Source: Olsenella sp. An270 (GTDB lineage: Bacteria; Actinomycetota; Coriobacteriia; Coriobacteriales; Atopobiaceae). Taken from it: 64,000 nt of DNA. Numbering within the stretch: the stretch's first letter is position 1; every line of letters starts with the position of its first letter. Both the position numbers and the translations under genes were made by a program. Below, piece after piece: positions 25,208-37,519 of this stretch. The stretch is taken from assembly GCF_002159735.1 (NCBI RefSeq), contig NZ_NFJF01000001.1, positions 186,001 to 250,000 of the forward strand, written 5' to 3'. The notes under the pieces were generated by a model, which saw nothing but the letters and a program-made list of their open reading frames with translations, made no database searches and had not been told where the DNA came from.

Positions 25208-26653
25208 ATGGCGCTCCTAACAAGCTACTACCTGCCCGGCCTCGCCGTCGAGGACCACGCGATCGACGTCCCGCTCGACTGGCGGGGCACGTCCCCCGCG
25301 CGCTTGGCGGGCGTCGAAAGCGCGCCTACCTCGCTGCTCGCGGAGGCGTCGGCGGCCGAGAAGTGCGATCCCGCCTTCGAGGGTCGCTCCCTGCGCCTCT
25401 TCTACCGCGTGGTCAGCGCGCCGGAGAACGTGGGACGCGACCTCCCGTACCTCGTCTTTCTCCAGGGCGGTCCCGGCGGCGCCAGCCCGCGCCTCACCTC
25501 GCCGACAAGCGACGGCTGGGTCGCGGAGGCGGTGCGCCATTTCCGCGTGATCCTGCCCGACCAGCGCGGCACCGGACGCTCCTCGCGCGTGGACGGCGCC
25601 ACGATCGCGCGCGAGGGCGATGCCGCCGCGCAGGCCCGCTTCCTCAAGCGCTTCCTCGCGGACTCGATCGTCCGTGACCTCGAGTACCTGCGCCTCAAGG
25701 AGCTCGGCGGCGTTCGCTGGGTCACGCTCGGCCAGAGCTACGGCGGCTTTCTCACGCTCGCGTACCTCTCCACGTTCCCCGGCGCCGCGGCGGCGTGCTT
25801 CACCTGCGGCGGCATCCCGCACGTGCCGGCGAGCGCCGAGGAGATCTACGCCCACACGTTCCCGCGCATGGTCGCCAAGACGAGCCTCCTCTACGAGCGC
25901 TACCCGGACGACGAGCGCCGCCTCGCGCTCCTCGCCGGCCGCGCCGCCGTCGGAGACGTGCGCCTGCCAGACGGCTCGCCACTCTCCCCGCGACGCCTGC
26001 AGTCGCTGGGGCAGGGCCTTGGCATGAAGCCGGGCCACGAGCGCCTTCACAACCTGCTCGACCTTGCCTTCACTGCCGGCGACGGCTCCGCGGACGCGGC
26101 TCTTGCCGCAGTGCGCGGGCACGCCGAGAAGATTGAGCTCTCGCCGGCGTTTCTCGCGGGCGCGTGGTCGACCACCAACGTTGCGGCGAACCCACTCTAC
26201 TGGGTGCTCCAGGAGCTCATCTATGCGGACGGCGAGCTGGACGCGCCGATCGCGTGGGCTGCGGAGCGCGCCTGGCGCGAGCGTCCCGAGTTCGACCCCG
26301 TCGCGCGACCCCTCATGCTCACGGGCGAGGCCTGCTTCCCGTGGATGTTCGAGGAGATGCCGGAGCTGCGGCCCTTCGCGGGCGCGATGGGGTGCCTCAT
26401 GGCGGACACGTCGTTCGGCCGGCCCTACGACCCCGCGGCTCTTCTCGCCAACGAGACGCCGCTCCAGGCGGCGGTCTACTTCGACGACCTCTACGTAGAC
26501 GCAAGCCTGCAGCTGGACACGCTCGGCCGCGTGGGCGCGGGCCACGCCTGGGTCACCAACGAATTCGAGCACGACGGCCTGCACGGCGACCGTGTGTTCA
26601 AGCACCTGCTGGACGAGGCACGTGACCGCGGCGACCTTGCGGGCCTGCTGTAG
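25208..26653 (+). CDS. alpha/beta-hydrolase, proline iminopeptidase-like (S33)
   Basis: A 481-residue hydrolase of the S33 aminopeptidase family, which removes N-terminal proline or other residues from small peptides. Seen: the oxyanion block LVFLQGGPGGASPR (about 80), LPDQRGTGRS, the nucleophile elbow LGQSYGGFLTLAYL (Ser at about 178), and a late segment GAGHAWVTNEFEHDGLHGD that should carry the catalytic His. There is no signal peptide, so it is probably cytoplasmic. The long middle is the family's lid domain. CAGGAGGACTC precedes the ATG. It stands alone between a repeat element and the defence island. Confidence 0.85.
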   Translation: MALLTSYYLPGLAVEDHAIDVPLDWRGTSPARLAGVESAPTSLLAEASAAEKCDPAFEGRSLRLFYRVVSAPENVGRDLPYLVFLQGGPGGASPRLTSPTSDGWVAEAVRHFRVILPDQRGTGRSSRVDGATIAREGDAAAQARFLKRFLADSIVRDLEYLRLKELGGVRWVTLGQSYGGFLTLAYLSTFPGAAAACFTCGGIPHVPASAEEIYAHTFPRMVAKTSLLYERYPDDERRLALLAGRAAVGDVRLPDGSPLSPRRLQSLGQGLGMKPGHERLHNLLDLAFTAGDGSADAALAAVRGHAEKIELSPAFLAGAWSTTNVAANPLYWVLQELIYADGELDAPIAWAAERAWRERPEFDPVARPLMLTGEACFPWMFEEMPELRPFAGAMGCLMADTSFGRPYDPAALLANETPLQAAVYFDDLYVDASLQLDTLGRVGAGHAWVTNEFEHDGLHGDRVFKHLLDEARDRGDLAGLL

Positions 26654-26732
26654 CAAGGGTCGTCTTGCCACGAGAATTGGCGGGCGGGATCGAAGTCGCT
26701 GACCGAGTGCGCGCCTATGAAGAATTGATTGC

Positions 26733-26745
26733 CCGACATTGTCGG
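26733..26745. promoter_or_regulatory. palindrome CCGACA-T-TGTCGG upstream of the antitoxin RNA
   Basis: A perfect 6+1+6 palindrome lies 36 nt before the first antitoxin repeat, about where a promoter or operator of the toxin-antitoxin locus is expected. No consensus promoter could be assigned with confidence. Confidence 0.35.
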
Positions 26746-26781
26746 TGGATTCTATGTGACGACTGGCATAGACTGTAGGCA

Positions 26782-26853
26782 GCGGGCATATCTCGGCCCT
26801 AACGGAGAAAGTTATAAGCGGGCATATCTCGGCCCTAACTGAGAAAGTTATAA
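26782..26853 (+). ncRNA. toxI: ToxI-like antitoxin RNA repeats (type III TA)
   Basis: Two head-to-tail 36-nt units (26782-26817 and 26818-26853) differ at one base. In each, GGGC pairs with GCCC and TCTC with GAGA, and the four segments run in the order 1-2-1'-2'. This is an H-type pseudoknot, the fold of known type III antitoxin RNAs. Known ToxI has 36-nt repeats and lies directly upstream of toxN behind a terminator, exactly as here. The toxin would cut its own repeat RNA into units that then inhibit it. Two units is at the low end for the family. Confidence 0.8.
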
Positions 26854-26889
26854 GTGAGCGTTTCGCCGCTCTGAGTGCGAGCGTAACAG

Positions 26890-26930
26890 CGAGGGTGGGC
26901 TCTGCCTGCCCTCGATTTGTCTATTTGGGA
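26890..26930 (+). terminator. terminator between antitoxin RNA and toxN
   Basis: Stem CGAGGG.GGGC with GCCT.CCCTCG and loop TCT is followed by ATTTGTCTATTT. In type III systems a leaky terminator here sets the ratio of antitoxin RNA to toxin mRNA. Confidence 0.65.
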
Positions 26931-26939
26931 GGGGTTGAG

Positions 26940-27425
26940 ATGGAAGACATTGGAATCTACGAAGTGAGCGAACGCTATGTCGACTATCTGGCTCCCCTTG
27001 CTCCGCACTTGTTTCATAACAAGCGCCACGGGCAGAAGTTCTCCCGAAAGTATATCGGTGTCGTGCTGACGGTGAACGATATGGATTACTTTGCCCCCTT
27101 ATCCTCCTTCAAGGACAAACATCGAAAGATGAAGGAGGGTTTGGACCTCATCAAGCTCAAGGACTACGCCGTCATCAACTTGAACTGCATGTTTCCCGTT
27201 CCCGAGAATCAGTGCACCTATGTTGACATCTCCAAGGTAGAGGACCCCTCGTATCGCTCCCTTCTTCGGGCGGAGTATCGGGAAATCAGGGCTCTCTCCG
27301 GACGCATTAGGAAGAGCGCACGGAACCTTTATCGGCACAAGATCAAGAACGGAACGTCGACCCGTTTGGCGGCTCGCTGCAATGACTTTACGGTGCTTGA
27401 GACCGCCTGCAAGGAGTTCTTGTAA
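26940..27425 (+). CDS. toxN: type III toxin-antitoxin endoribonuclease toxin, ToxN/AbiQ family
   Basis: A 161-residue RNase toxin, near the usual ToxN length (about 170). Family blocks are recognisable in order: YEVSERYVDYL at the N-terminus, YIGVVLTVNDMDYFAPLSS (core strand and the Ser-rich active-site loop), FKDKHRKMK with the lysines after it, YAVINLNCMFPVP, LLRAEYREIRALSGRI, and a terminal CNDFTVLETACKEF. In known systems the toxin dimer or trimer is neutralised by pseudoknot RNA, and is freed on phage infection to abort growth. GGGAGGGG precedes the ATG. The two 36-nt repeats and a terminator upstream complete the locus. Confidence 0.88.
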   Translation: MEDIGIYEVSERYVDYLAPLAPHLFHNKRHGQKFSRKYIGVVLTVNDMDYFAPLSSFKDKHRKMKEGLDLIKLKDYAVINLNCMFPVPENQCTYVDISKVEDPSYRSLLRAEYREIRALSGRIRKSARNLYRHKIKNGTSTRLAARCNDFTVLETACKEFL

Positions 27426-27454
27426 AAAACGGCCGAGAAGAACGGAGGGCTCGC

Positions 27455-27664
27455 ATGAGTGATGGCATGCCCGGGTGGGCGGCGTGGGGGAGCCTCGCCG
27501 AGGAGCAGCTTGCGGGTGAGGCTGAGGCGCTGCTGCGCGAGAGTCGGCGCGCGCCGGTAGAGCGTCGCCGTGTGGAGGCGCTGCTCGACCTCTACGGCCA
27601 GAGCTTTGAGACGCTGCCCGACTATCTGCGGCGCATTGTGGGAGAGATTGAGGTCGAGGACTGA
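27455..27664 (+). CDS. small acidic protein of unknown function
   Basis: A 69-residue protein that I do not recognise. It is helical and acidic (SLAEEQLAGEAEALLRESRR, then ALLDLYGQSFETLPDYLRRIV), with no membrane segment or metal motif. The ATG follows CGGAGGGCTCGC. It lies 29 nt after toxN on the same strand and before the promoter region of the restriction operon, so it could be a regulator or accessory of either. The ribosome site and GC content near that of the host support a real gene. Confidence 0.6.
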   Translation: MSDGMPGWAAWGSLAEEQLAGEAEALLRESRRAPVERRRVEALLDLYGQSFETLPDYLRRIVGEIEVED

Positions 27665-27782
27665 CCGTCCGCCCACCAGCATGTGCGAATGCTTGCAACT
27701 CTCGGTATCATGGGAGTGTTGAATTATTGTCCGGTGCCCTCGCTACGATGGGGACGGTGCCGGTCGTAACGGGAGCGAGCAC

Positions 27783-27890
27783 ATGAATGCGCTTGTGAAC
27801 TGCAAAAACCTAACGGGGGGGGGTTCTCCGAGTAGGAGTGCCCGTCTAGTCCCGCATGCCCTGCTACGCCGCCCCGAGGGGGTGGCGTAG
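27783..27890 (+). CDS. leader ORF with G9 tract, coupled to the defence operon
   Basis: A 35-codon ORF: ATG at 27783 after GGGAGCGAGCAC, stop TAG at 27888-27890, three bases before the helicase ATG (TAGCGAATG). It contains nine consecutive G (27815-27823). With 8 or 10 G the frame would stop at 27850 or 27834 instead, before the hairpin at 27863-27891. Translation in the present length crosses and melts that hairpin, which holds the GAGGGGG ribosome site of the helicase. I infer a phase-variable leader that turns operon translation on or off. The peptide itself resembles nothing I know. Confidence 0.6.
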   Translation: MNALVNCKNLTGGGSPSRSARLVPHALLRRPEGVA

Positions 27891-27891
27891 C
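27863..27891 (+). promoter_or_regulatory. hairpin sequestering the helicase ribosome-binding site
   Basis: The 13-bp imperfect stem pairs GCTACGCCGCCCC with GGGGGTGGCGTAGC around a GA-rich loop. The right arm includes GAGGGGG, the only ribosome site for the ATG at 27894, and ends at the leader stop codon. Confidence 0.65.
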
Positions 27892-27893
27892 GA

Positions 27894-30800
27894 ATGGACA
27901 ATGCCTTTTTCGACAACAGAACCAGTATTCTCAAAGATGACCTTATCAGGGTCATAGAAGAAGGGGATACTGTCTCTATTGCGGCGTCGGTGTTCTCCAT
28001 GTACGCATTCAACGAGCTTCGCGAGCAGCTCGAGTCGCTCGACGAGTTCCGGTTCATATACACCGAGCCAACCTTTGCCAAGGAGCACGCCAAGAAGGAG
28101 CAGCGTGAGTTCTACATCCCGCGCCTTTCGCGCGAGCAGGGACTCTACGGCACAGAGTTTGAAATCAAGCTTCGCAACGAGCTTACCCAGAAAGCCGTTG
28201 CGTCGGAATGCGCGAGCTGGATCAGGAAGAAGGCTCGTTTCAGGTCCGCGACAACCGGTCAGGCGCCTGTTGCCCCCGCGCTGACCGTGAGCGGAAAGGA
28301 AGACGCCTCTACCTATATGCCCTTCCAGCGCTTTACGGTGGGAGAGCTTGGGGTGGGCGACCATCCTACCGTGACGGGCGTGTCGCGTCTTGACACCTCG
28401 ACGTCCCGACAGTTCCTTGTCATGTTCGATCAGGCGTGGGAAAACGGGGGGCTCGAAGACGTCACGGATACAGTCGTGGACAACATTCAGGCAATGTATC
28501 GGGAGAATGCGCCCGAACTTATCTACTATGCAGCGCTCTATCGAATCTTCCACGAGTTCCTTGACGATGTCTCGGTGGACAACCTGCCCAAGGAGGGAAC
28601 GGGTTTCCGTGAAAGTGCCATTTGGAACCTTCTCTATGACTTCCAAAGAGACGCGGTCCTTGCCATTATCAACAAGCTCCAGACCTACGATGGCTGCATC
28701 CTCGCCGACAGCGTAGGTCTTGGCAAGACGTTCACGGCACTCGCTGTCATTAAGTACTACGAGTCGCTCAATCGCAACGTGCTCGTCCTTTGCCCTAAGA
28801 AGCTTTCGGACAACTGGACGATGTACCGCAACAACCAGGTCAACAATCCCATAGCCAGCGATCGTCTCCGCTATGACGTGCTCTACCACACCGACCTCTC
28901 GCGCAAGCGGGGCAAGACCGTCACGGGCATGGACCTGGAGACAATCAACTGGGGCGGATATGACCTCGTCGTCATCGACGAGTCCCACAACTTCCGCAAC
29001 GGCGAAGACACGGCAACTGCGGCAAGGGACGACGGGACGGGTGGTACCGAGAACCGCTATCAGCGTCTGCTCAACCACGTCATTCGCGGTGGAGTCCCTA
29101 CCAAGGTGCTCATGCTCTCCGCCACCCCCGTCAACAACCGTTTCCGTGACCTGCGCAACCAGCTAAGGCTCGCCTATCAGGGAGATCCGGCTGGGTGGTC
29201 GGAGAAGCTGGGGCTCTCTTCCAACATTGAGGACGTGTTCAAGAGCGCCCAGGGTGCCTTCACGGTCTGGTCCAAGCTTCCCGTCGAGGGGCGTAGCACC
29301 GAGGCGCTCACTGATTCGCTCGACTTCGACTTCTTCAAGGTTCTCGACCAGGTGACGGTTGCTCGCTCGCGCAAGCATATCCAGCGGTACTACGACGTGA
29401 GCGCCATCGGCCCGTTCCCGCGCCGCAACGATCCCATCTCAATCTACCCCAAGCTCTCCACGCTGCCCAACAGCACCACATACAGCGAGATTGCCAACTC
29501 GCTTGATCTGCTCAAGCTCGCGGTTTACATCCCATCGCACTATCTGCTGGCTTCGGCTCGAGGCAAGTACGAGGACAGGAATGGCAACCTCACCACGAGC
29601 GGTCGCGAGACGGGTGTCCGCAAGCTCATGGCCGCCAACTTGCTCAAGCGTCTCGAGAGCTCCGTCTCGTCGTTCAGGCTCACGCTCGAGCGCGTCTTCT
29701 CCGTAATGAACCAGTGCCTCAACACCATTGAGGTGTTCAAGGCGGAGGGCGCGGTTACGGCAAAGGTGGATACCTCCTCTTTTGGCAAAGACTTCGACCT
29801 CGACTACGAGGATGCCGACTTCATGGACTTCTCCGTGGGCGGCAAAACGCAGTTCGATCTTCGCGACCTCGATTGGAAAAGCTGGGAGAAGGACGTCCGG
29901 GATGACGCTCAGACGATTGAGGGCCTGCTCGAGATGATTCGCAGCATCGATGCCGAGCATGACGACAAGCTCCTGCGTCTCGAACGGCTCATTGCCAAGA
30001 AGGCCGAGAACCCCATCAACCCGGGCAACAAGAAGGTCATCGTGTTCACGGCGTTCGCCGACACCGCGAACTACCTTTACGAGAACGTCTCCGAGTTTGC
30101 GTCCCGCGAGCTGGGGCTGGGAGTCGCAGAGGTCACGGGATCGGGTGGCGGCAAGACCAACGTTGAGGGCGTCCGCGGGGACCTTTCCGAGATCCTCACC
30201 TGCTTCTCACCTGTCTCCAAGGACCGCGACAAGGTCTACCCGCGTCTGCGCGGCAAGGACATCGACATCCTCATCGCCACGGACTGCATCTCCGAGGGCC
30301 AGAACCTCCAGGACTGCGACTATCTTGTGAACTACGACATCCATTGGAACCCGGTGCGCATAGTCCAGCGCTTCGGCCGTGTTGACCGCATCGGCTCCAA
30401 GAACGACGCCATTCAGCTCGTCAACTTCTGGCCGGATGAAGACCTTGATCACTATATCAACCTCAAGGCGCGCGTCGAGAATCGCATGCACGCCGTCGTC
30501 ATGACCTCGACCGGCGACGACGACTACATAAACGAGGACGAGAAGGGCGACCTCGAGTATCGCAAACAGCAGCTCGAGCAGATGAAGCATGAGGTCGTGG
30601 ACCTCGAGGACGTCTCGGGCGGCGTCTCCATCACCGACCTCGGTCTCAACGACTTCCGGATGGACCTCGTCTCCTACCACCAGGAGAACCCGGACATCGA
30701 CCGCGTTCCCACGGGCATTGATGCCGTGGTGGAAGGCGACACTCCGGGCATCATCTTCGTGCTCCGCAACGTGAATCAGGAGCTCGACGCCAAGACACGC

Positions 30801-31151
30801 AACCAGATTCACCCGTTCTACCTGGTGTACGTGAGCGACGAGGGCGAGGTCGTGCATGGTTACCTCGATCCCAAAGAGTCTCTCGACGCCATGAGACGCC
30901 TGTGCAAGGGTAAGTCCGAACCAGATGCAGCGCTCTGCCGTGCCTACAACAAGGCCACGAAGAACGGGCGAGACATGCGTGCCGCCTCGAGCCTGCTGCG
31001 CAGTGCCATCGATTCGATCGTGGAGGAGAAGGCCGAGGCCGACCTCGACAGCTTCTTCTCCGGCGGTACTACGAGCTTCCTCGAGAACGACGTCGCCGGC
31101 CTCGATGACTTCGAGCTCGTCTGCTTCCTGGTGGTGAGGCCTCGTGCTTAA
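27894..31151 (+). CDS. SNF2-type helicase with N-terminal PLD-like domain
   Basis: A 1085-residue superfamily 2 ATPase. The first 190 residues resemble the PLD-like domain found before such helicases (DDLIRVIEEGDTVSIAASVFSMYAFNEL), but without a clear HKD motif. The motor has Walker A LADSVGLGKTFTA (about 269-281), DESH in VVIDESHNFRN (about 360), SAT in LMLSATPVNN (about 405), and a C-terminal half with IVFTAFADTANYL, LIATDCISEGQNLQ and IVQRFGRVDRIG (about 823). Helicases of this type occur next to DUF4391 proteins and type III Mod/Res genes. Its role is inferred as DNA or nucleoprotein remodelling during phage defence. It overlaps the DUF4391 gene by 8 nt. Confidence 0.88.
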   Translation: MDNAFFDNRTSILKDDLIRVIEEGDTVSIAASVFSMYAFNELREQLESLDEFRFIYTEPTFAKEHAKKEQREFYIPRLSREQGLYGTEFEIKLRNELTQKAVASECASWIRKKARFRSATTGQAPVAPALTVSGKEDASTYMPFQRFTVGELGVGDHPTVTGVSRLDTSTSRQFLVMFDQAWENGGLEDVTDTVVDNIQAMYRENAPELIYYAALYRIFHEFLDDVSVDNLPKEGTGFRESAIWNLLYDFQRDAVLAIINKLQTYDGCILADSVGLGKTFTALAVIKYYESLNRNVLVLCPKKLSDNWTMYRNNQVNNPIASDRLRYDVLYHTDLSRKRGKTVTGMDLETINWGGYDLVVIDESHNFRNGEDTATAARDDGTGGTENRYQRLLNHVIRGGVPTKVLMLSATPVNNRFRDLRNQLRLAYQGDPAGWSEKLGLSSNIEDVFKSAQGAFTVWSKLPVEGRSTEALTDSLDFDFFKVLDQVTVARSRKHIQRYYDVSAIGPFPRRNDPISIYPKLSTLPNSTTYSEIANSLDLLKLAVYIPSHYLLASARGKYEDRNGNLTTSGRETGVRKLMAANLLKRLESSVSSFRLTLERVFSVMNQCLNTIEVFKAEGAVTAKVDTSSFGKDFDLDYEDADFMDFSVGGKTQFDLRDLDWKSWEKDVRDDAQTIEGLLEMIRSIDAEHDDKLLRLERLIAKKAENPINPGNKKVIVFTAFADTANYLYENVSEFASRELGLGVAEVTGSGGGKTNVEGVRGDLSEILTCFSPVSKDRDKVYPRLRGKDIDILIATDCISEGQNLQDCDYLVNYDIHWNPVRIVQRFGRVDRIGSKNDAIQLVNFWPDEDLDHYINLKARVENRMHAVVMTSTGDDDYINEDEKGDLEYRKQQLEQMKHEVVDLEDVSGGVSITDLGLNDFRMDLVSYHQENPDIDRVPTGIDAVVEGDTPGIIFVLRNVNQELDAKTRNQIHPFYLVYVSDEGEVVHGYLDPKESLDAMRRLCKGKSEPDAALCRAYNKATKNGRDMRAASSLLRSAIDSIVEEKAEADLDSFFSGGTTSFLENDVAGLDDFELVCFLVVRPRA

Positions 31152-31758
31152 CCTGCCGAGCACGGTGCTCGTCAACCGTGTGATGCCCAAGAAGGCGTTT
31201 TACGAGCACCTCAAGACAACGACTGCCATCAAGGAGCAGTTTGTCCAGCAGATCGAGCGCATCGAGATGGTCGCTTCCATCAAGGAGGCCAGCATCCACA
31301 TCCCTGGCGACAAGGATGTGGCGGAGATAGATGTCCTCGCGCTCCACCTCAAAGGTGCCGATGTTCCCTACGAGGCAATCGAGTTGGTTGCGCGTTCGAT
31401 ACCCAACAAGCTGCTCTTCGTTTGTCTGACGGACGAGTCCTGCAAGCTGCTCGTGAGGCGAGATCGTCTCTATGAGACGGAATGGGTATCAGTCGATGAC
31501 GCTAAGCTCGAGCTGGCGGGATCGACCTTAGGAGAGCTGTGGGACTCCATCGCCTCTCAGGTCGTTTTCGGCGACGCCAACTCCGTTGACCTTGCTGGGC
31601 GCCTTGAGCGCAAGAGGCGGAGCGAGTCGCTGCGGCTCGAGCTCGAGCAGGTTGAGCGGAAGCGCAAATCAGAAAAGCAAATCGCAAAGAAGAACGCTCT
31701 CTTCGATCGCAAACGCGCAATCGAGGCGGAGCTGTCCCGTCTGGAGGGGGAGTCCTGA
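31144..31758 (+). CDS. DUF4391 family protein
   Basis: A 204-residue protein matching the DUF4391 family, found between SNF2 helicases and type III methylases. The N-terminal 140 residues are alpha/beta with the conserved start LNLPSTVLVNRVMPKKAFYEH and segments QQIERIEMVASIKEASIHIP and IPNKLLFVCLTDE. The last 50 residues are a charged coiled coil (ERKRRSESLRLELEQVERKR). Function is unknown; a link between helicase and methylase is a guess from gene order. GTG start at 31144 inside the helicase end; the stop overlaps the Mod start (TGATG). Confidence 0.8.
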   Translation: MLNLPSTVLVNRVMPKKAFYEHLKTTTAIKEQFVQQIERIEMVASIKEASIHIPGDKDVAEIDVLALHLKGADVPYEAIELVARSIPNKLLFVCLTDESCKLLVRRDRLYETEWVSVDDAKLELAGSTLGELWDSIASQVVFGDANSVDLAGRLERKRRSESLRLELEQVERKRKSEKQIAKKNALFDRKRAIEAELSRLEGES

Positions 31759-33776
31759 TGGAGAAGCTGTCCCACACCACCGAGAGCATCCTCGACGAGA
31801 ACGTCGAGAAGCTCGCCGCGCTCTTCCCCGAGGTCGTGACCGAGGTTCGCGAGCCCGACGGCACCCTTCGTCACGCCATCGACGCCGATGCCCTCAGGGA
31901 GCGAGTGGGCGACGTCGCCGAGGGCAGCCGCGAGCGCTACCAGTTCACCTGGCCGGGCAAGCGCGAGGCCAAGCAGGAGGCGTACCGCCAGATAGACAAG
32001 TGCCTGCGCCCGTGCCCCGAGGAGAGCGTGGACTGGGACACGACCGGCAACCTCTACATCGAGGGCGACAACCTCGACGCGCTCAAGCTCCTGCGCAACA
32101 CCTACGCCGGCAAGGTCAAGATGATCTACATCGACCCGCCCTACAACACGGGCCACGACTTCATCTACGACGACGACTTCGCGCGGACGAAGGCCGACTA
32201 CGATGCCGAGAGCGGCGACTACGACGAGAAGGGAGGCCGTCTCGTCGCCAACCCCGAGTCCAACGGCCGCTTCCACTCCGACTGGTGCTCGATGATGTAC
32301 CCGCGTCTGTTGCTCGCGAGGGATTTGCTGAGTGATGACGGAGTTATCTTTATCTCAATCGACGATGGTGAATTGCAATCACTTGTGCAGATATGTAATG
32401 AGATATTTGGCTGCAGCAATGGTTTCCCCACCCTATGCGTCGAGATTTCTAAAACTCAAGGGATGAAAGTTGCGGCTGCCCAAAAAGGACAAATTGTAAA
32501 GAATCACGAGTATGTGACTGTTTATTCAGCCAACAAAGAGCTGGCATCATTGAATCGAATGCCTTTATATGATAGGGCGACAAAGTATGATAATCATTTC
32601 GATATCATATTAGATGATAAGGGGGCTACTAGATCACTTCTTGAATTTCTAAGGAACACCCCTGAGTCTGCTGAATATTTCGAACGCTACGGGCTTGATT
32701 ATTCTAAAGACAGTCTTCAAATATTGCTTAATATATCCAGTGAGTTTGAGGAATATTTTTATCGTTATGTCGCAAGTAGGCTATACCAAAAAACTATGAT
32801 CAATATGTCCTCAATTCAAAAGCTGGACATGCCTGTTGGAAAAGTTGTTGAATATTCTGGATACCTCCTACTAAAGAACAGTAGGGGAAGAATAGAGCAG
32901 CTTCAATCATTTGAAAAGACTTTGCATTACTCAGATGAATATAGGCCGAGATTTGAGCGCACTACAATTCGAGGTGCTCTTTGGAAGGGCTTTTATTCTG
33001 ACATGATGAACGTGGCCAAAGAAGGAGGCGTGGATTTTAAAAATGGAAAGAAGCCCGTCCGTCTAATTGAGCAACTTGCAAAATGGCTTAACAGAAGGGA
33101 CGCTATCATTCTCGACTTCTTCTCTGGCTCCGCCACCACCGCTCATGCTGTCATGCGGCTCAACGCGGAGGACGGCGGAAGCCGCAAGTTCATCATGGTG
33201 CAGCTGCCAGAGGTCTGCGATGAGAAGTCGGAGGCTGCCAAGGCTGGCTACAAGAACATCTGCGAGATAGGTAAGGAGCGCATCCGCCGTGCGGGCAAGA
33301 AGATTGCCGCTGAGGTGGAGGAGTCCAACCGCCAGCTCAAGCTCGGTGAGGAGCCAAAGAAGGTTCCGGACATCGGCTTCCGTGTGCTCAAGATCGACTC
33401 CTCGAACTTCGAGGACGTTTCTGTGGAACCGGACGGGTTCTCCCAGGATGCGATGCTTACGTTCGCGGACAACCTCAAGCTCGACCGCGCACCCGACGAT
33501 CTTATCATCCAGGTGATGCTCAAGAAGCAGATCGAGCTCTCGGCTCCTATCGAAAAGCTCCACGTCGACGGATGCACTGTCTTCTCGGTTGACGGCGGGC
33601 GTCTGGTCGCCTGCTTCGACAGGGACGTTCCCGTCGAGGTCATGACGGCAATGGCCAAGATGGAGCCCGACTACGCGGTCATGCGCGACGCCTCCTTCGC
33701 CGGTGACGATGCCGTCTCAAACTTTGCCGAGATCTTCAAGAACTACAGTTCCATTACCGAGGTCGAGGTGATCTAG
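31758..33776 (+). CDS. mod: type III restriction-modification methyltransferase (Mod)
   Basis: A 672-residue beta-class N6-adenine methyltransferase that recognises and protects the target site. Catalytic DPPYNTG lies in IYIDPPYNTGHDF (about 125-131), and the SAM-binding FSGSATTAHAVM is near residue 454. This motif order defines the beta group. Between them, codons from about 188 to 450 (about 32320-33110) form the target-recognition domain and are strikingly AT-rich, while both flanks have the high GC of the host. A C-terminal 100-residue tail binds Res. Overlaps the DUF4391 stop; Res follows after 3 nt. Confidence 0.93.
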   Translation: MEKLSHTTESILDENVEKLAALFPEVVTEVREPDGTLRHAIDADALRERVGDVAEGSRERYQFTWPGKREAKQEAYRQIDKCLRPCPEESVDWDTTGNLYIEGDNLDALKLLRNTYAGKVKMIYIDPPYNTGHDFIYDDDFARTKADYDAESGDYDEKGGRLVANPESNGRFHSDWCSMMYPRLLLARDLLSDDGVIFISIDDGELQSLVQICNEIFGCSNGFPTLCVEISKTQGMKVAAAQKGQIVKNHEYVTVYSANKELASLNRMPLYDRATKYDNHFDIILDDKGATRSLLEFLRNTPESAEYFERYGLDYSKDSLQILLNISSEFEEYFYRYVASRLYQKTMINMSSIQKLDMPVGKVVEYSGYLLLKNSRGRIEQLQSFEKTLHYSDEYRPRFERTTIRGALWKGFYSDMMNVAKEGGVDFKNGKKPVRLIEQLAKWLNRRDAIILDFFSGSATTAHAVMRLNAEDGGSRKFIMVQLPEVCDEKSEAAKAGYKNICEIGKERIRRAGKKIAAEVEESNRQLKLGEEPKKVPDIGFRVLKIDSSNFEDVSVEPDGFSQDAMLTFADNLKLDRAPDDLIIQVMLKKQIELSAPIEKLHVDGCTVFSVDGGRLVACFDRDVPVEVMTAMAKMEPDYAVMRDASFAGDDAVSNFAEIFKNYSSITEVEVI

Positions 33777-33779
33777 GTT

Positions 33780-36700
33780 ATGGAGTTCAAGTTCAAGGTC
33801 CAGCAGTACCAGACTCTGGCGGCAGATGCAGTTGCCGATGTCTTCAAAGGCCAGCCCAAAGTTGATGGGCAGCAGTTCGTTCGTGACCTGGGGGCCGGAT
33901 TCTATAACAAGAGGGGCCAGGCGTTCATTGGCAACTTCGACGGTTCTGATGCTGGTGCCTCTGATGGCTACAAGAACGCTCCGTTAACGATGGGGTCCGA
34001 CGTTCTTCTCGACAATATCAAGAAGGTCCAGGACCGCAATGGCATTGAGCGCTCGGGCAAGCTCAGCCACGCACTTGGCGCCTGTGAGCTGGACGTTGAG
34101 ATGGAGACAGGCACCGGTAAGACCTACGTCTACACCGAGACGATCTTCGAGCTCAACAAGCGCTACGGGTGGTCCAAGTTCATCATCGTGGTGCCGAGCG
34201 TCGCCATTCGCGAGGGCGTGGCGAAATCACTTGCTATCACTGAGCGGCACTTTGCTGATCGCTACGGAAAGCGCATCTGGTGGTTCGTCTACAGCAGTTC
34301 GCGCCTGAACGAGCTCGATGCCTTTGCTAGCCGGAGCGACATCTCCGTCATGGTCATCAACATGCAGGCGTTCAACGCCTTTGACGAGTCCAAGAGTAAG
34401 GAGGGACGCGGGGGAGACAAGACCGCCCGCATCATGTTCTCCGAGCGCGACGACTTTGGCAGTCGTCGTCCCATCGACGTCCTGGCGGCAACCAACCCCA
34501 TCCTCATCCTCGATGAGCCTCAGAAGATGGGAAAGAAGAACAGCGCCACGCGCAAGGCGATGCGGCAGTTCTGCCCGCTCTTCTCGCTCAACTACTCGGC
34601 CACGCACGCAGAGCATCACAACGAGGTCTACGCGCTTGACGCGCTTGATGCCTACAACATGCGCCTTGTGAAGCGCATCGAGGTCAAGGGCTTTGAGGTG
34701 CGTGGTATGCGTGGCACAGACGGCTATCTCTGCCTGCAGGAGATCAAGGTGAGCAAGGCCGCTCCTGTCGCGCGCATCGAGTTCAAGAAGCTCATGGCTA
34801 ACGGCAGCGTGAAGAAGGTCATCGGCTCGTTCGATGAGGGTGATGACATCTATGTTGCCTCGGGCGAGCTCGAGGCATATCGCAACGACTTCGTGGTCTC
34901 TGAGATTCGCGCCGACCGGGACGGTGCCCTTGGCTACGTGCGCTTCCGCAATGGCGAGGAGCTGCGTTGCGGCGAGGTTGTCGGTGACACCGTGGGCGAG
35001 GACATTCGTCGTGTACAGATTCGCGAGACCATCAAGAGTCACCTCCAGAAGGAGGAGCAGCTCTACTCACGGGGCATCAAGTGCCTCTCGCTCTTCTTCA
35101 TTGATGAGGTGAAGAAGTATCGCGAGTATTCAGTTGATGATGGGGAAGAGCTGACGGTCGGCTACGGCAAGGTTTTCGAGGAGGAGTACGCCGCTGCTGT
35201 AGCAGAGAGGCTTGGCTCTCCCCGCATTGGGGACGACGCACCCGGCTCCTATGCCTCGTATCTCAAGCAGTTTGAGCCGAGCCAGGTGCACAAGGGGTAC
35301 TTCTCGATTGACAAGAAGGGTCACGCGATCAACAGCACCACCAAGCGCGGCTCCGAGGACTCCGATGACGAAAGTGCCTACGACCTCATCCTCAAGAACA
35401 AGGAGCGCCTGCTCTCCTTCGAGGAGCCTACGCGCTTCATCTTCTCTCACTCGGCGTTGCGCGAGGGATGGGACAACCCCAACGTCTTCCAAATCTGCAC
35501 GCTCAAGGAGTCTGGCTCCGAGACGAGCAAGCGACAGGAGGTTGGGCGCGGTATGCGTCTGTGCGTGAACCAGGAGGGCGACCGTCAGGATGTTGGCGCG
35601 CTCGGCGAGGACATGGTCCAGAAGGTGAACCTGCTTACGGTCATCGCGTCCGAGAGCTATTCGAGCTTCGTGAACGACCTGCAGAGGGACATCCGCGCAG
35701 AGCTGCGCGAGCGGCCGAAGAAGGTCACGAGGGAGTTCCTCCGGGACTTTCACTATGTCGGATCGGGCGGCGTGAAGCTCGAGCTGGATGGCGAGCAGGC
35801 CGAGCTCGTGCACAACGTGCTGGTGAAGCTCGAGTACGTTGGCCTCGACGGCAGCGTCACCGACAAGTTCAAGACCGAGGGCATCAGGCGCGAGGAGATC
35901 GAGACGCTCCCCGTTGCCGCGCGCACGGTTATCGAGCAGAAGCTCCCGCTTATCGAGACCGCTCTGACGAGCGTCTTTGACGGCTCGGTGCTCGATGACA
36001 TGGTGAGCAACGGTCTCGAGGCGAAGGTCCTCTCCAACCCCCTGAACGAGAACTTCGGAAAGAGGGAGTTCCAGGAGCTCTGGAACAAGATCAACTTCAA
36101 GCAGGCATACACCGTTCACTTTGATGACGACGAGCTGCGCCGCAAGGCGGTGGACAACATCGACCGCAACCTCATGGTCTCCAAGGTGACGTATCGCATC
36201 GTCACGGGAGAGCAGGCAAAGGAGGGGAGCGCCGAGCAGCTTGACTCGAAGAGCCGCTTCGAGGTGAGTCACACCGAGACGCACAGTCTCTCGGAGGTGT
36301 CTCCCATCCACGTCAAGTACGACCTGGTGGGTGAGGTTGCCAAGCGTGCGAAGATCACCCGTCGAAGCGCGGCGAGGATTCTCTCCGAGATGAGCCCCGT
36401 GAAGTTCGCTCTCTTTAAGGAGAACCCCGAGGAGTTCATCGCCAAGGTGGGAGACGCCATCGTTGACGAGAAGGCGACGATGATCGTGGAGCACATCAGC
36501 TACAACCGACTCGAGGAGCGTTACGACGCGGCAATCTTCACCGAGACGATGCCGGAGAGCATGGCGCGCGCCTACCGGTCCAAGAAGAACGTGCAGGACT
36601 ACGTGTTCCCGGACGGGACTGCAGTGAAGTCAGTGGAGCGGCGGTTTGCCGAGGACCTGGATGCGGCTGACGAGGTGGTCGTCTACGCCAAGCTGCCGCG

Positions 36701-36950
36701 CTCGTTCCAGATACCGACGCCGGTCGGCAACTACGCCCCCGATTGGGCTATCGCCTTCAAACGTGAGCGCGTGAAGCACGTCTTCTTTGTCGCGGAGACC
36801 AAGGGATCGATGAGCACGTTGGATTTGCGTCCTATCGAGCAGGCGAAAATCGCGTGCGCGAAGAAGCTCTTCAACGAGATGGGCGATGCCGACGTGCACT
36901 ACGACGTGGTGGATAGCTATGAGAAGCTGCTGAGGATTGTGGGTGAGTGA
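33780..36950 (+). CDS. res: type III restriction endonuclease subunit (Res)
   Basis: A 1056-residue subunit that joins a DNA-sliding SF2 ATPase to a nuclease. Walker A is ETGTGKTYVYTE (about 107-118) and the DEAD position is DEPQ in ILILDEPQKMG (about 243), the hallmark variant of type III Res. SALREGWDNPNVFQICTL and RQEVGRGMRLC are the later helicase motifs. The C-terminal PD-(D/E)xK nuclease has NYAPDWAIAF (D at about 987) and ETKG (E at about 1006, K two residues on). All catalytic residues seem intact. It cuts unmodified DNA with Mod. Its end overlaps the HEPN-motif gene. Confidence 0.93.
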   Translation: MEFKFKVQQYQTLAADAVADVFKGQPKVDGQQFVRDLGAGFYNKRGQAFIGNFDGSDAGASDGYKNAPLTMGSDVLLDNIKKVQDRNGIERSGKLSHALGACELDVEMETGTGKTYVYTETIFELNKRYGWSKFIIVVPSVAIREGVAKSLAITERHFADRYGKRIWWFVYSSSRLNELDAFASRSDISVMVINMQAFNAFDESKSKEGRGGDKTARIMFSERDDFGSRRPIDVLAATNPILILDEPQKMGKKNSATRKAMRQFCPLFSLNYSATHAEHHNEVYALDALDAYNMRLVKRIEVKGFEVRGMRGTDGYLCLQEIKVSKAAPVARIEFKKLMANGSVKKVIGSFDEGDDIYVASGELEAYRNDFVVSEIRADRDGALGYVRFRNGEELRCGEVVGDTVGEDIRRVQIRETIKSHLQKEEQLYSRGIKCLSLFFIDEVKKYREYSVDDGEELTVGYGKVFEEEYAAAVAERLGSPRIGDDAPGSYASYLKQFEPSQVHKGYFSIDKKGHAINSTTKRGSEDSDDESAYDLILKNKERLLSFEEPTRFIFSHSALREGWDNPNVFQICTLKESGSETSKRQEVGRGMRLCVNQEGDRQDVGALGEDMVQKVNLLTVIASESYSSFVNDLQRDIRAELRERPKKVTREFLRDFHYVGSGGVKLELDGEQAELVHNVLVKLEYVGLDGSVTDKFKTEGIRREEIETLPVAARTVIEQKLPLIETALTSVFDGSVLDDMVSNGLEAKVLSNPLNENFGKREFQELWNKINFKQAYTVHFDDDELRRKAVDNIDRNLMVSKVTYRIVTGEQAKEGSAEQLDSKSRFEVSHTETHSLSEVSPIHVKYDLVGEVAKRAKITRRSAARILSEMSPVKFALFKENPEEFIAKVGDAIVDEKATMIVEHISYNRLEERYDAAIFTETMPESMARAYRSKKNVQDYVFPDGTAVKSVERRFAEDLDAADEVVVYAKLPRSFQIPTPVGNYAPDWAIAFKRERVKHVFFVAETKGSMSTLDLRPIEQAKIACAKKLFNEMGDADVHYDVVDSYEKLLRIVGE

Positions 36951-37519
36951 TCGTGAACTCTACGGAGGACATGAAGCGCAGGCTTGAGATGCGCGACATG
37001 CACGATTTTTTCCTGAACAAAATCAAAGGAGCAATGGATAGCGAGAATTATTTTGAGGCTGCGTGGCTCGAGTATTCTTGTCTTGAGAATCGATACTTTC
37101 GCACGCTCGGTAAGTATAAAACAGCATGTAAATACTGTAAGGGAAAATGCAAGAGTAAGAAGAACGAACTTGCGTTGAGAACCAAGGTTAGGTGCGTCCA
37201 AAGACTTATGGACGCTGGCATCAGTTGTGTCTCGGAGTCGTTTTCTCCGGATCAGATATCGAGTACGCTTTCATGGATTAAGAAAAGAAACTATCTCATG
37301 CATAGTTTACTGGCTCTAGAAACCTACCAAGAATCATTTGACCATTCGTTTCGGGAGCTCGCAGGCGAGGGCTATGATCTGGTTGTCCAAACGTATCAAT
37401 CCTGTACACGTTTTCGGGCAATCTTCTTTAGTGAGAATTATATATTTAATTTCCCTGAAGAGTGCATGGAGAAGTGCGCATGCAACGTTAAAGCTAGGGA
37501 AAGAACCATAGAGCTATAA
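36947..37519 (+). CDS. HEPN-motif protein at the end of the type III R-M operon
   Basis: A 190-residue helical protein. RNYLMH at residues 114-119 is an RxxxxH motif preceded by KK and followed by SLLAL, the form found in HEPN ribonucleases. An earlier helix EAAWLEYSCLENRYFRTL (37-54) fits the first HEPN helix. Four cysteines lie at 61, 64, 68 and 83. Many HEPN proteins are RNA-cutting toxins in defence operons, so this may be an abortive-infection effector. The family call is from motif and layout only. The DNA is AT-rich, unlike Res just before it. The GTG at 36947 overlaps the Res stop; GTG at 36953 is an alternative. Confidence 0.65.
   Translation: MIVNSTEDMKRRLEMRDMHDFFLNKIKGAMDSENYFEAAWLEYSCLENRYFRTLGKYKTACKYCKGKCKSKKNELALRTKVRCVQRLMDAGISCVSESFSPDQISSTLSWIKKRNYLMHSLLALETYQESFDHSFRELAGEGYDLVVQTYQSCTRFRAIFFSENYIFNFPEECMEKCACNVKARERTIEL

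Follow-up and report, generated by a model that had tools for sequence, protein, structure and literature searches.

The window, by which we mean the whole 64-kb stretch of DNA analysed, carries on its forward strand a closely packed operon of five genes, whose boundaries are given here as mechanical ORF ends. The first gene (27894–31151, +) encodes a SNF2-type helicase, with C3a139 HKD+Snf2 as the best defence model. It is followed by the genes for a DUF4391 protein (31144–31758, +), overlapping the helicase gene by 8 nt, a type III DNA methyltransferase (Mod; 31758–33776, +; MTase_III 8.9e-190), with a 1-nt overlap, a type III restriction enzyme (Res; 33780–36950, +; REase_III 8.5e-279), starting 3 nt past Mod, and a 190-aa protein (36947–37519, +), which overlaps Res by 4 nt and showed no family in Pfam, PADLOC or NCBIfam. 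The presence of both Mod and Res subunits, judged from these matches, points to a type III restriction-modification operon. An identity as DISARM, a set composed of DrmA, DrmB and DrmC with DrmD or DrmMI, was rejected: the helicase reached 131 bits against DrmD, whose cut-off is 610, and neither DrmB nor DrmC appeared among the matches listed for the five operon proteins (the best 25 of 44 for the helicase, the best 25 of 26 for Mod).

The upstream DNA holds a 69-aa gene of the integration site (27455–27664, +), lacking a Pfam or NCBIfam family, which we regard as context outside the switch described below; its DNA is present, and the leader absent, at operon-free sites (genomes G014 and G029). 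In G011 a second copy of this DNA (L169) adjoins another island with two large anonymous ORFs of 1082 and 1114 aa. Further upstream, a ToxN/AbiQ toxin gene and, immediately before it, a 36-nt repeat in 2.1 copies (26781–26854 and 26895–27425) look like a type III toxin–antitoxin pair beside the operon.

The window leader and its reading frames

Directly ahead of the helicase gene lies a putative leader ORF of 35 sense codons plus TAG (27783–27890, +), in the helicase frame. Its ATG (27783–27785) is preceded at a distance of 7 nt by the ribosome site GGGAG (27771–27775, +), while its TAG (27888–27890) is followed by CGA and then, in the same frame, by the helicase ATG at 27894. The leader contains a tract of exactly nine G (27815–27823, +), at which slippage may occur and which is the sole G or C run of at least 7 within the window; nine G runs of at least 8 were counted on both strands of the 2.01-Mb window genome. 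This arrangement had been proposed in the first-pass annotation, and on re-reading the same coordinates were obtained. As separate observations on G runs, a G9 at L119 (G000:C8:256037–256045) lies among the opening codons of a long ORF whose beginning, by eye, resembles a signal peptide, making it a candidate phase-variable and perhaps secreted gene, and the reverse strand of G009 contains 114 overlapping nine-base G windows, far above the other genomes of the genus and perhaps reflecting very long runs.

The window genome is in the ON configuration, in which the leader would be translated through to its TAG. With one G more the reading would end at a stop at 27833–27835 (+), and with one G fewer at 27847–27849 (+), i.e. 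58 or 44 bases before the helicase ATG. Both stops lie upstream of a hairpin stem that begins 31 bases before this ATG; the first-pass annotation had placed them at about 27834 (G10) and 27850 (G8), and the frame check, giving 27835 and 27849, agrees within one base. The OFF state at −44 may leak a little, because that stop is only 13 nt ahead of the stem. A role of the tract as a promoter-spacing element was rejected for the window, since the tract sits within the leader ORF, 3' of the leader ribosome site. A scan of 27430–27960 gave neither a sigma-70-like promoter nor a terminator-like site, and Rfam returned no family match for 26600–28100.

The hairpin (27863–27891, +) consists of 13 pairs closed by a GAG loop, covers the leader stop and the putative helicase ribosome site, and is present in the minimum-energy fold of 27760–27920. 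This 161-nt fold has a z of −2.59, with 5 of 200 shuffles equally good. The SD-like GGGGGTG (27878–27884, +), 9 nt before the helicase ATG in the 3' arm of the hairpin, is the only such sequence found there by eye and would serve as the helicase ribosome site. Thus the earlier description of a 13-bp hairpin over the only helicase ribosome site holds for the fold, with the uniqueness of the site judged by eye.

The core sequence following the tract was found exactly in 9 of the 31 genomes of the genus and, when up to one mismatch was allowed among 396 genomes of the class, in those nine alone. In genome contigs the exact pattern occurred 11 times, eight times within the genus and three times in unrelated contexts; viral contigs gave two, both in unrelated contexts, and eight matches with two mismatches were dropped, with no G-tract leader around them and coding DNA by eye. 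Of the nine genus loci, six lie ahead of the helicase operon and three (G003, G024 and G027) ahead of brxA. Several elements are invariant in all nine: the GGAGC and ATG of the leader, then the tract itself with the 13 bases that follow, and further on the 3' half of the stem, as well as the CCGAGGGGGTGGCGTA stretch at the SD-like sequence. The stop reached with G10 is likewise invariant, and the stop reached with G8 is kept throughout, as TAA instead of TAG in G025. Since these parts are invariant, and the same arrangement is found again with unlike leader sequences (see below), we regard the window layout as more than chance. For the inner ten pairs of the hairpin, the nine-sequence comparison shows pairing in 90 of 90 cells, and the 11 changes found there are one-sided and preserve it; covariation in these nine sequences showed no excess over shuffles (105 of 500 reach the observed value). 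Over the stem the leader peptide varies, with R replaced by C or by H, which suggests that the act of translation, rather than the peptide, is important.

Tract length is not fixed between species, so the fixed tract that, in the first-pass annotation, would have refuted the idea is not borne out at this level. The nine genus loci have G9 in seven cases and G10 in two, and seven leaders are in frame, those of G011 and G013 being out of frame. In the type shared by G008 and G013 the leader ATG lies one base nearer the tract, and the G10 of G008 restores the frame by a compensating change; within the leader, as far as its stop codon, the two differ in nothing but G10 versus G9. Similarly, G004 and G011 differ by G9/G10 and by two bases within the leader. 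These close-relative differences are between species, and several tract lengths, stemming from metagenome-assembled genomes, may include assembly errors.

Helicase and BREX leaders across the order

Relatives of the helicase were found at E ≤1e-100 in 69 of 395 genomes, and 71 of the 72 rows were examined as helicase loci, leaving out G440, whose row starts at residue 387. Fifteen of the 71 have a sense-strand G run of at least 9 (G9–G11), ending 51–155 nt before the start, and span three families and six genera. All belong to the 16 loci with at least 68% helicase identity, the exception among these being G360; none of the other 55 loci has a leader, nor any G or C run of at least 7 within 350 nt upstream. 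The search of other genomes for G-tract leaders ahead of helicase/DUF4391 operons, suggested at the outset, was therefore positive in 15 of 16 loci at this identity. DUF4391 and Mod follow the helicase in 14 of the 14 leader loci checked (G363 left out). In G254 (L175) a second run, G12, lies at −203 upstream of the leader-bearing helicase.

Ahead of the tract, each helicase leader has a start codon accompanied by an SD-like motif. Past the tract, one frame only reaches a stop at −3, −1 or 0 from the helicase ATG in 15 of 15 loci, so that the upstream stop abuts the downstream start as in a coupled pair; the two remaining frames end earlier, at −29 to −133. By frame reading, each thus contains a long homopolymer in which a change of +1 or −1 would alter expression; nine leaders read ON and six are OFF by one G. 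The abutting stop was compared with dinucleotide shuffles for 10 of the 15 helicase leaders and 6 of the 10 coupled BREX leaders described below. For the helicase leaders, shuffles gave an abutting stop in 1.7–9%, and the product across five leader families is 9e-7, or about 1e-5 with families A and D merged, the end window having been set after seeing the data.

These five families are A, which includes the window's leader (7 loci), B (G107 and G243), C (G118), D (G254 and G363) and E (G245, G099 and G337). They were compared by local alignments without the G run against shuffles, using 12 helicase and 6 BREX leaders: z was 5.4–28 within families, and the mean z between families was −1.0 to 1.0. 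The A–D pair is the exception (mean z 2.3), so A and D may be related and four clearly unlike leader groups remain. Some BREX leaders (G366 and G232) show a weak resemblance to family E.

The window's leader also precedes BREX in the three species mentioned above. The DNA corresponding to window positions 27430–27890 (+) is common to these loci at 90–93%, the similarity breaking off at 27890 with the final base of the leader stop codon. In G024 (L049) BrxA, BrxB, BrxC, PglX in two parts and PglZ follow in order, as in BREX type 1; as an additional feature of this locus (L049 2565–11725, minus strand), the two ORFs of the split PglX have other genes between them. The ORFs of G003 are arranged as in G024 apart from the inserted ones, which differ, and G027 is truncated by a contig end; in both the BREX assignment is based on ORF layout and brxA.

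We then considered brxA at large, in a set of 40 loci from 39 of the 395 genomes (41 rows, two G308 rows being pieces of one gene; this broken brxA may have causes beyond the tract). Twenty-three of the 40 have a run of at least 8 at their front: ten in coupled leaders, three in in-frame N-terminal extensions and ten inside the first brxA codons. The coupled leaders stop at −3 to +11 of a brxA start chosen by rule, two of them have C-tracts, and the least certain are those of G191, G366, G428 and G091. By tract length, coupled leaders are ON in 3 cases and OFF in 7, extensions ON in 2 and OFF in 1, and internal runs ON in 5 and OFF in 5. Taking helicase and BREX together, 19 of the 38 tract-bearing loci are ON and 19 OFF; binomial values for ON/OFF counts against one third (0.03 and 0.025) overstate independence, because the counts include near-identical loci. 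In genus g33 the pre-tract sequence is almost identical in seven species, with G9 in four and G10 in three. Eight of the brxA loci (L262–L269), read for only 60 bases past the match start, have G8–G10 within the first brxA codons, and in seven of these a G9 or G10 follows nearly identical upstream sequence.

The distribution of the leaders does not follow that of the operons. In a midpoint-rooted helicase tree of the 31 rows with long sequence (G363 not included), 14 leader loci and the tractless G360 form one clade (100/100). Within this clade, leader families A and B are discordant with the tree: G314 has an A leader and its sister G243 a B leader, and G107 (B) falls in the same polytomy as A members. 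Specifically, the helicase DNA of G000 and G107 is 90% identical, and the aligned 140 bases before it only 52% (47% for G000 and G118). This discordance, together with the leader common to helicase and BREX loci, indicates that the same operon occurs behind different leaders, and the same leader ahead of different operons.

Nineteen leaderless loci (14 helicase, 5 BREX) were also viewed. In 12 an ORF of about 65–70 codons, ending at −4 to +17 of the operon start, occupies the leader position; the other seven have a shorter ORF (G412, G186 and G360), a different ORF (G379) or none (G434, G411 and G347). Of five upstream-ORF peptides scanned, four gave CopG/NikA/DUF6290-like matches below Pfam cut-offs and one gave no match, and on this basis the small ORF is likely a ribbon-helix-helix gene. 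Its position suggests that the leader replaces a small coupled gene, probably a regulator.

All together, these data favour, as the reading we would bet on with some reserve, that the slippage leader is a separate exchangeable module, able to switch any operon it abuts without change to a protein. In Coriobacteriales the layout would have originated, or been reconstructed, on several occasions (the helicase operon has at least four unlike leader groups before it, and BREX has more). It could be shuffled between unrelated defence operons, taking the place that a small, probably ribbon-helix-helix, gene has in relatives.

A proposed switch by leader translation

The predicted cost of opening the region from SD to start averages 20.5 kcal/mol for the 15 helicase leaders, compared to 7.7 for 53 leaderless controls (53 of the 56 leaderless helicase loci; G336, G262 and G360 were excluded). 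All 15 leaders exceed 13 kcal/mol, a value reached by one of the 53 controls. Against shuffles, z is 3.5 for helicase leaders and −0.18 for controls (Mann–Whitney p 3e-9, the loci not being independent), and the mean z of the five families is 5.0 (4.98), 2.6, 3.0, 2.6 and 1.5 (1.49). The operon starts behind helicase leaders are thus predicted to be unusually closed, although in different ways: in the predicted folds of families B and C the start is closed partly through pairing with the coding sequence, and not by the window's hairpin. The BREX leaders gave a mixed result (mean 16.9 kcal/mol, z 1.6), since 5 of the 10 coupled leaders are not above shuffles. The hairpin part of the proposal is firm for the window's leader family, and in half of the coupled BREX leaders the start is predicted to be no more closed than in shuffles.

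We consider it very probable, from the sequence comparisons, that the leader is a phase-variation switch in which slippage sets the frame and leader translation opens the operon start. Replication slippage would alter the number of G. When this number is in frame, the leader would be translated to its stop abutting the operon start; full translation would break the structure hiding the operon ribosome site and leave a ribosome at the start codon, and the first gene would then be translated by coupling, whether this works by unfolding, by reinitiation or by the two combined. Gain or loss of one G would make the ribosome stop upstream of the structure, leaving the first gene shut. In this OFF state coupling and polarity would also silence the genes downstream, whose close packing suggests that they follow the switch. 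Slippage within a strain, translation of the leader and the resulting ON/OFF setting of defence are what we infer from sequence. The switching of the operon through hairpin melting and reinitiation, as originally proposed, is borne out to the extent that a single frame abuts the helicase start in 15 of 15 leaders, that tract lengths vary between species and that helicase starts are predicted to be closed; the closed start does not extend to the five BREX leaders mentioned.

Replication slippage is plausible since MutL, the repair gene looked at (PF01119), was found in 0 of 31 genomes of the genus (against 11 of 14 controls), and since a G10 tract of Bifidobacterium breve held about 6.5% G9 molecules (PMC9187656).

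Long homopolymers can also slip during transcription. RNA polymerase slippage on the G run would yield mixed messages with a fixed in-frame fraction whatever the DNA length, i.e. an expression tuner in place of a heritable switch, and the layout and its conservation would look identical. However, it fails to predict DNA length differences between near-identical leaders or the OFF state of 6 of the 15 helicase loci, though it could soften such differences, and we hold it to be improbable. Still less credit is given to an attenuator, in which the leader would sense tRNA charging or its peptide would stall the ribosome, the G run being just glycine codons. A short ORF overlapping a structure is the layout of attenuators, but the leader families are unlike, the peptide varies in the stem region within one family, the same six helicase loci are out of frame, two BREX loci (among the less certain leaders) have C-tracts instead, and the window scan gave no terminator-like site. 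Finally, the conserved block might be an operator for a protein, or a site of recombination or integration, with the short ORF incidental. This would suit the sharp end at 27890 of the DNA common to restriction-modification and BREX loci and the 13 invariant post-tract bases, but is the least credible reading, as families B, C and E have the same frame layout without the block and one out-of-frame stop survives a change from TAG to TAA.

Relation to known systems and meaning

G-tract phase variation inside defence genes is already known, and the G repeat of Helicobacter pylori tlpB is non-coding. In the latter case a variable G repeat in an mRNA leader, read by the sRNA RepG, sets expression; the repeat is a small-RNA target and not a reading-frame switch (PMC8295292). 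For phage defence, G-tract phase variation at 1e-2 to 1e-4 is reported for the Pgl system (BREX type 2) of Streptomyces coelicolor (PMC4365076, PMC9122589). There the tract is inside pglX (PMC4365076), whereas here it is found in a separate leader or, in some BREX loci, at the brxA N-terminus. Phase-variable type III mod genes and phasevarions likewise switch type III restriction-modification by simple repeats; in the cases named in the papers cited the tract is in the methyltransferase gene, in contrast to a leader before the first gene of a longer operon (PMC12707154, PMC12003011).

The nearest known layout is that of the B. breve pilus clusters bbr_0113 and bbr_1889, where a G10/G11 in a short upstream ORF heads the operon, slippage was measured and downstream polarity was proposed. 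The upstream ORF of B. breve, however, fuses with the next ORF into one protein, whereas the window leader has a stop, and the operon gene a start, of its own; moreover, those clusters encode pili, and the window operon phage defence (PMC9187656). As for coupling with RNA unfolding, upstream translation opens a closed downstream start in the f1 genes VII and IX: coupling is lost when the upstream stop is shifted to a position well before the hairpin, and persists when the stop still reaches into it. This system is not phase variable (PMC12548453). The same coupling review names short upstream ORFs that only deliver ribosomes, and a word search of the text available gave no phase variation, slippage or homopolymer (PMC12548453). 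In the searched text of a 2026 BREX survey, phase-variable occurs in the reference list only (PMC12839542). A search of the open-access literature, covering titles and the starts of abstracts with most subscription papers outside it, gave no case in which a defence operon with a start of its own is coupled to a phase-variable leader.

In conclusion, what appears new here, and is well supported by the comparisons of sequence, is simple-repeat phase variation through a coupled leader, with the tract not inside the switched gene. A simple rule, that one frame abuts the start and two stop early, may be used to find such leaders in any genome. If this reading is true, one heritable ON/OFF switch would govern each whole defence operon while all of its proteins stay intact, and ordinary sequencing data would reveal heterogeneity in defence through nothing more than the length of the tract. 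In addition, calls of defence operons from gene content would be misleading, since by tract length half of the tract-bearing loci would be OFF.
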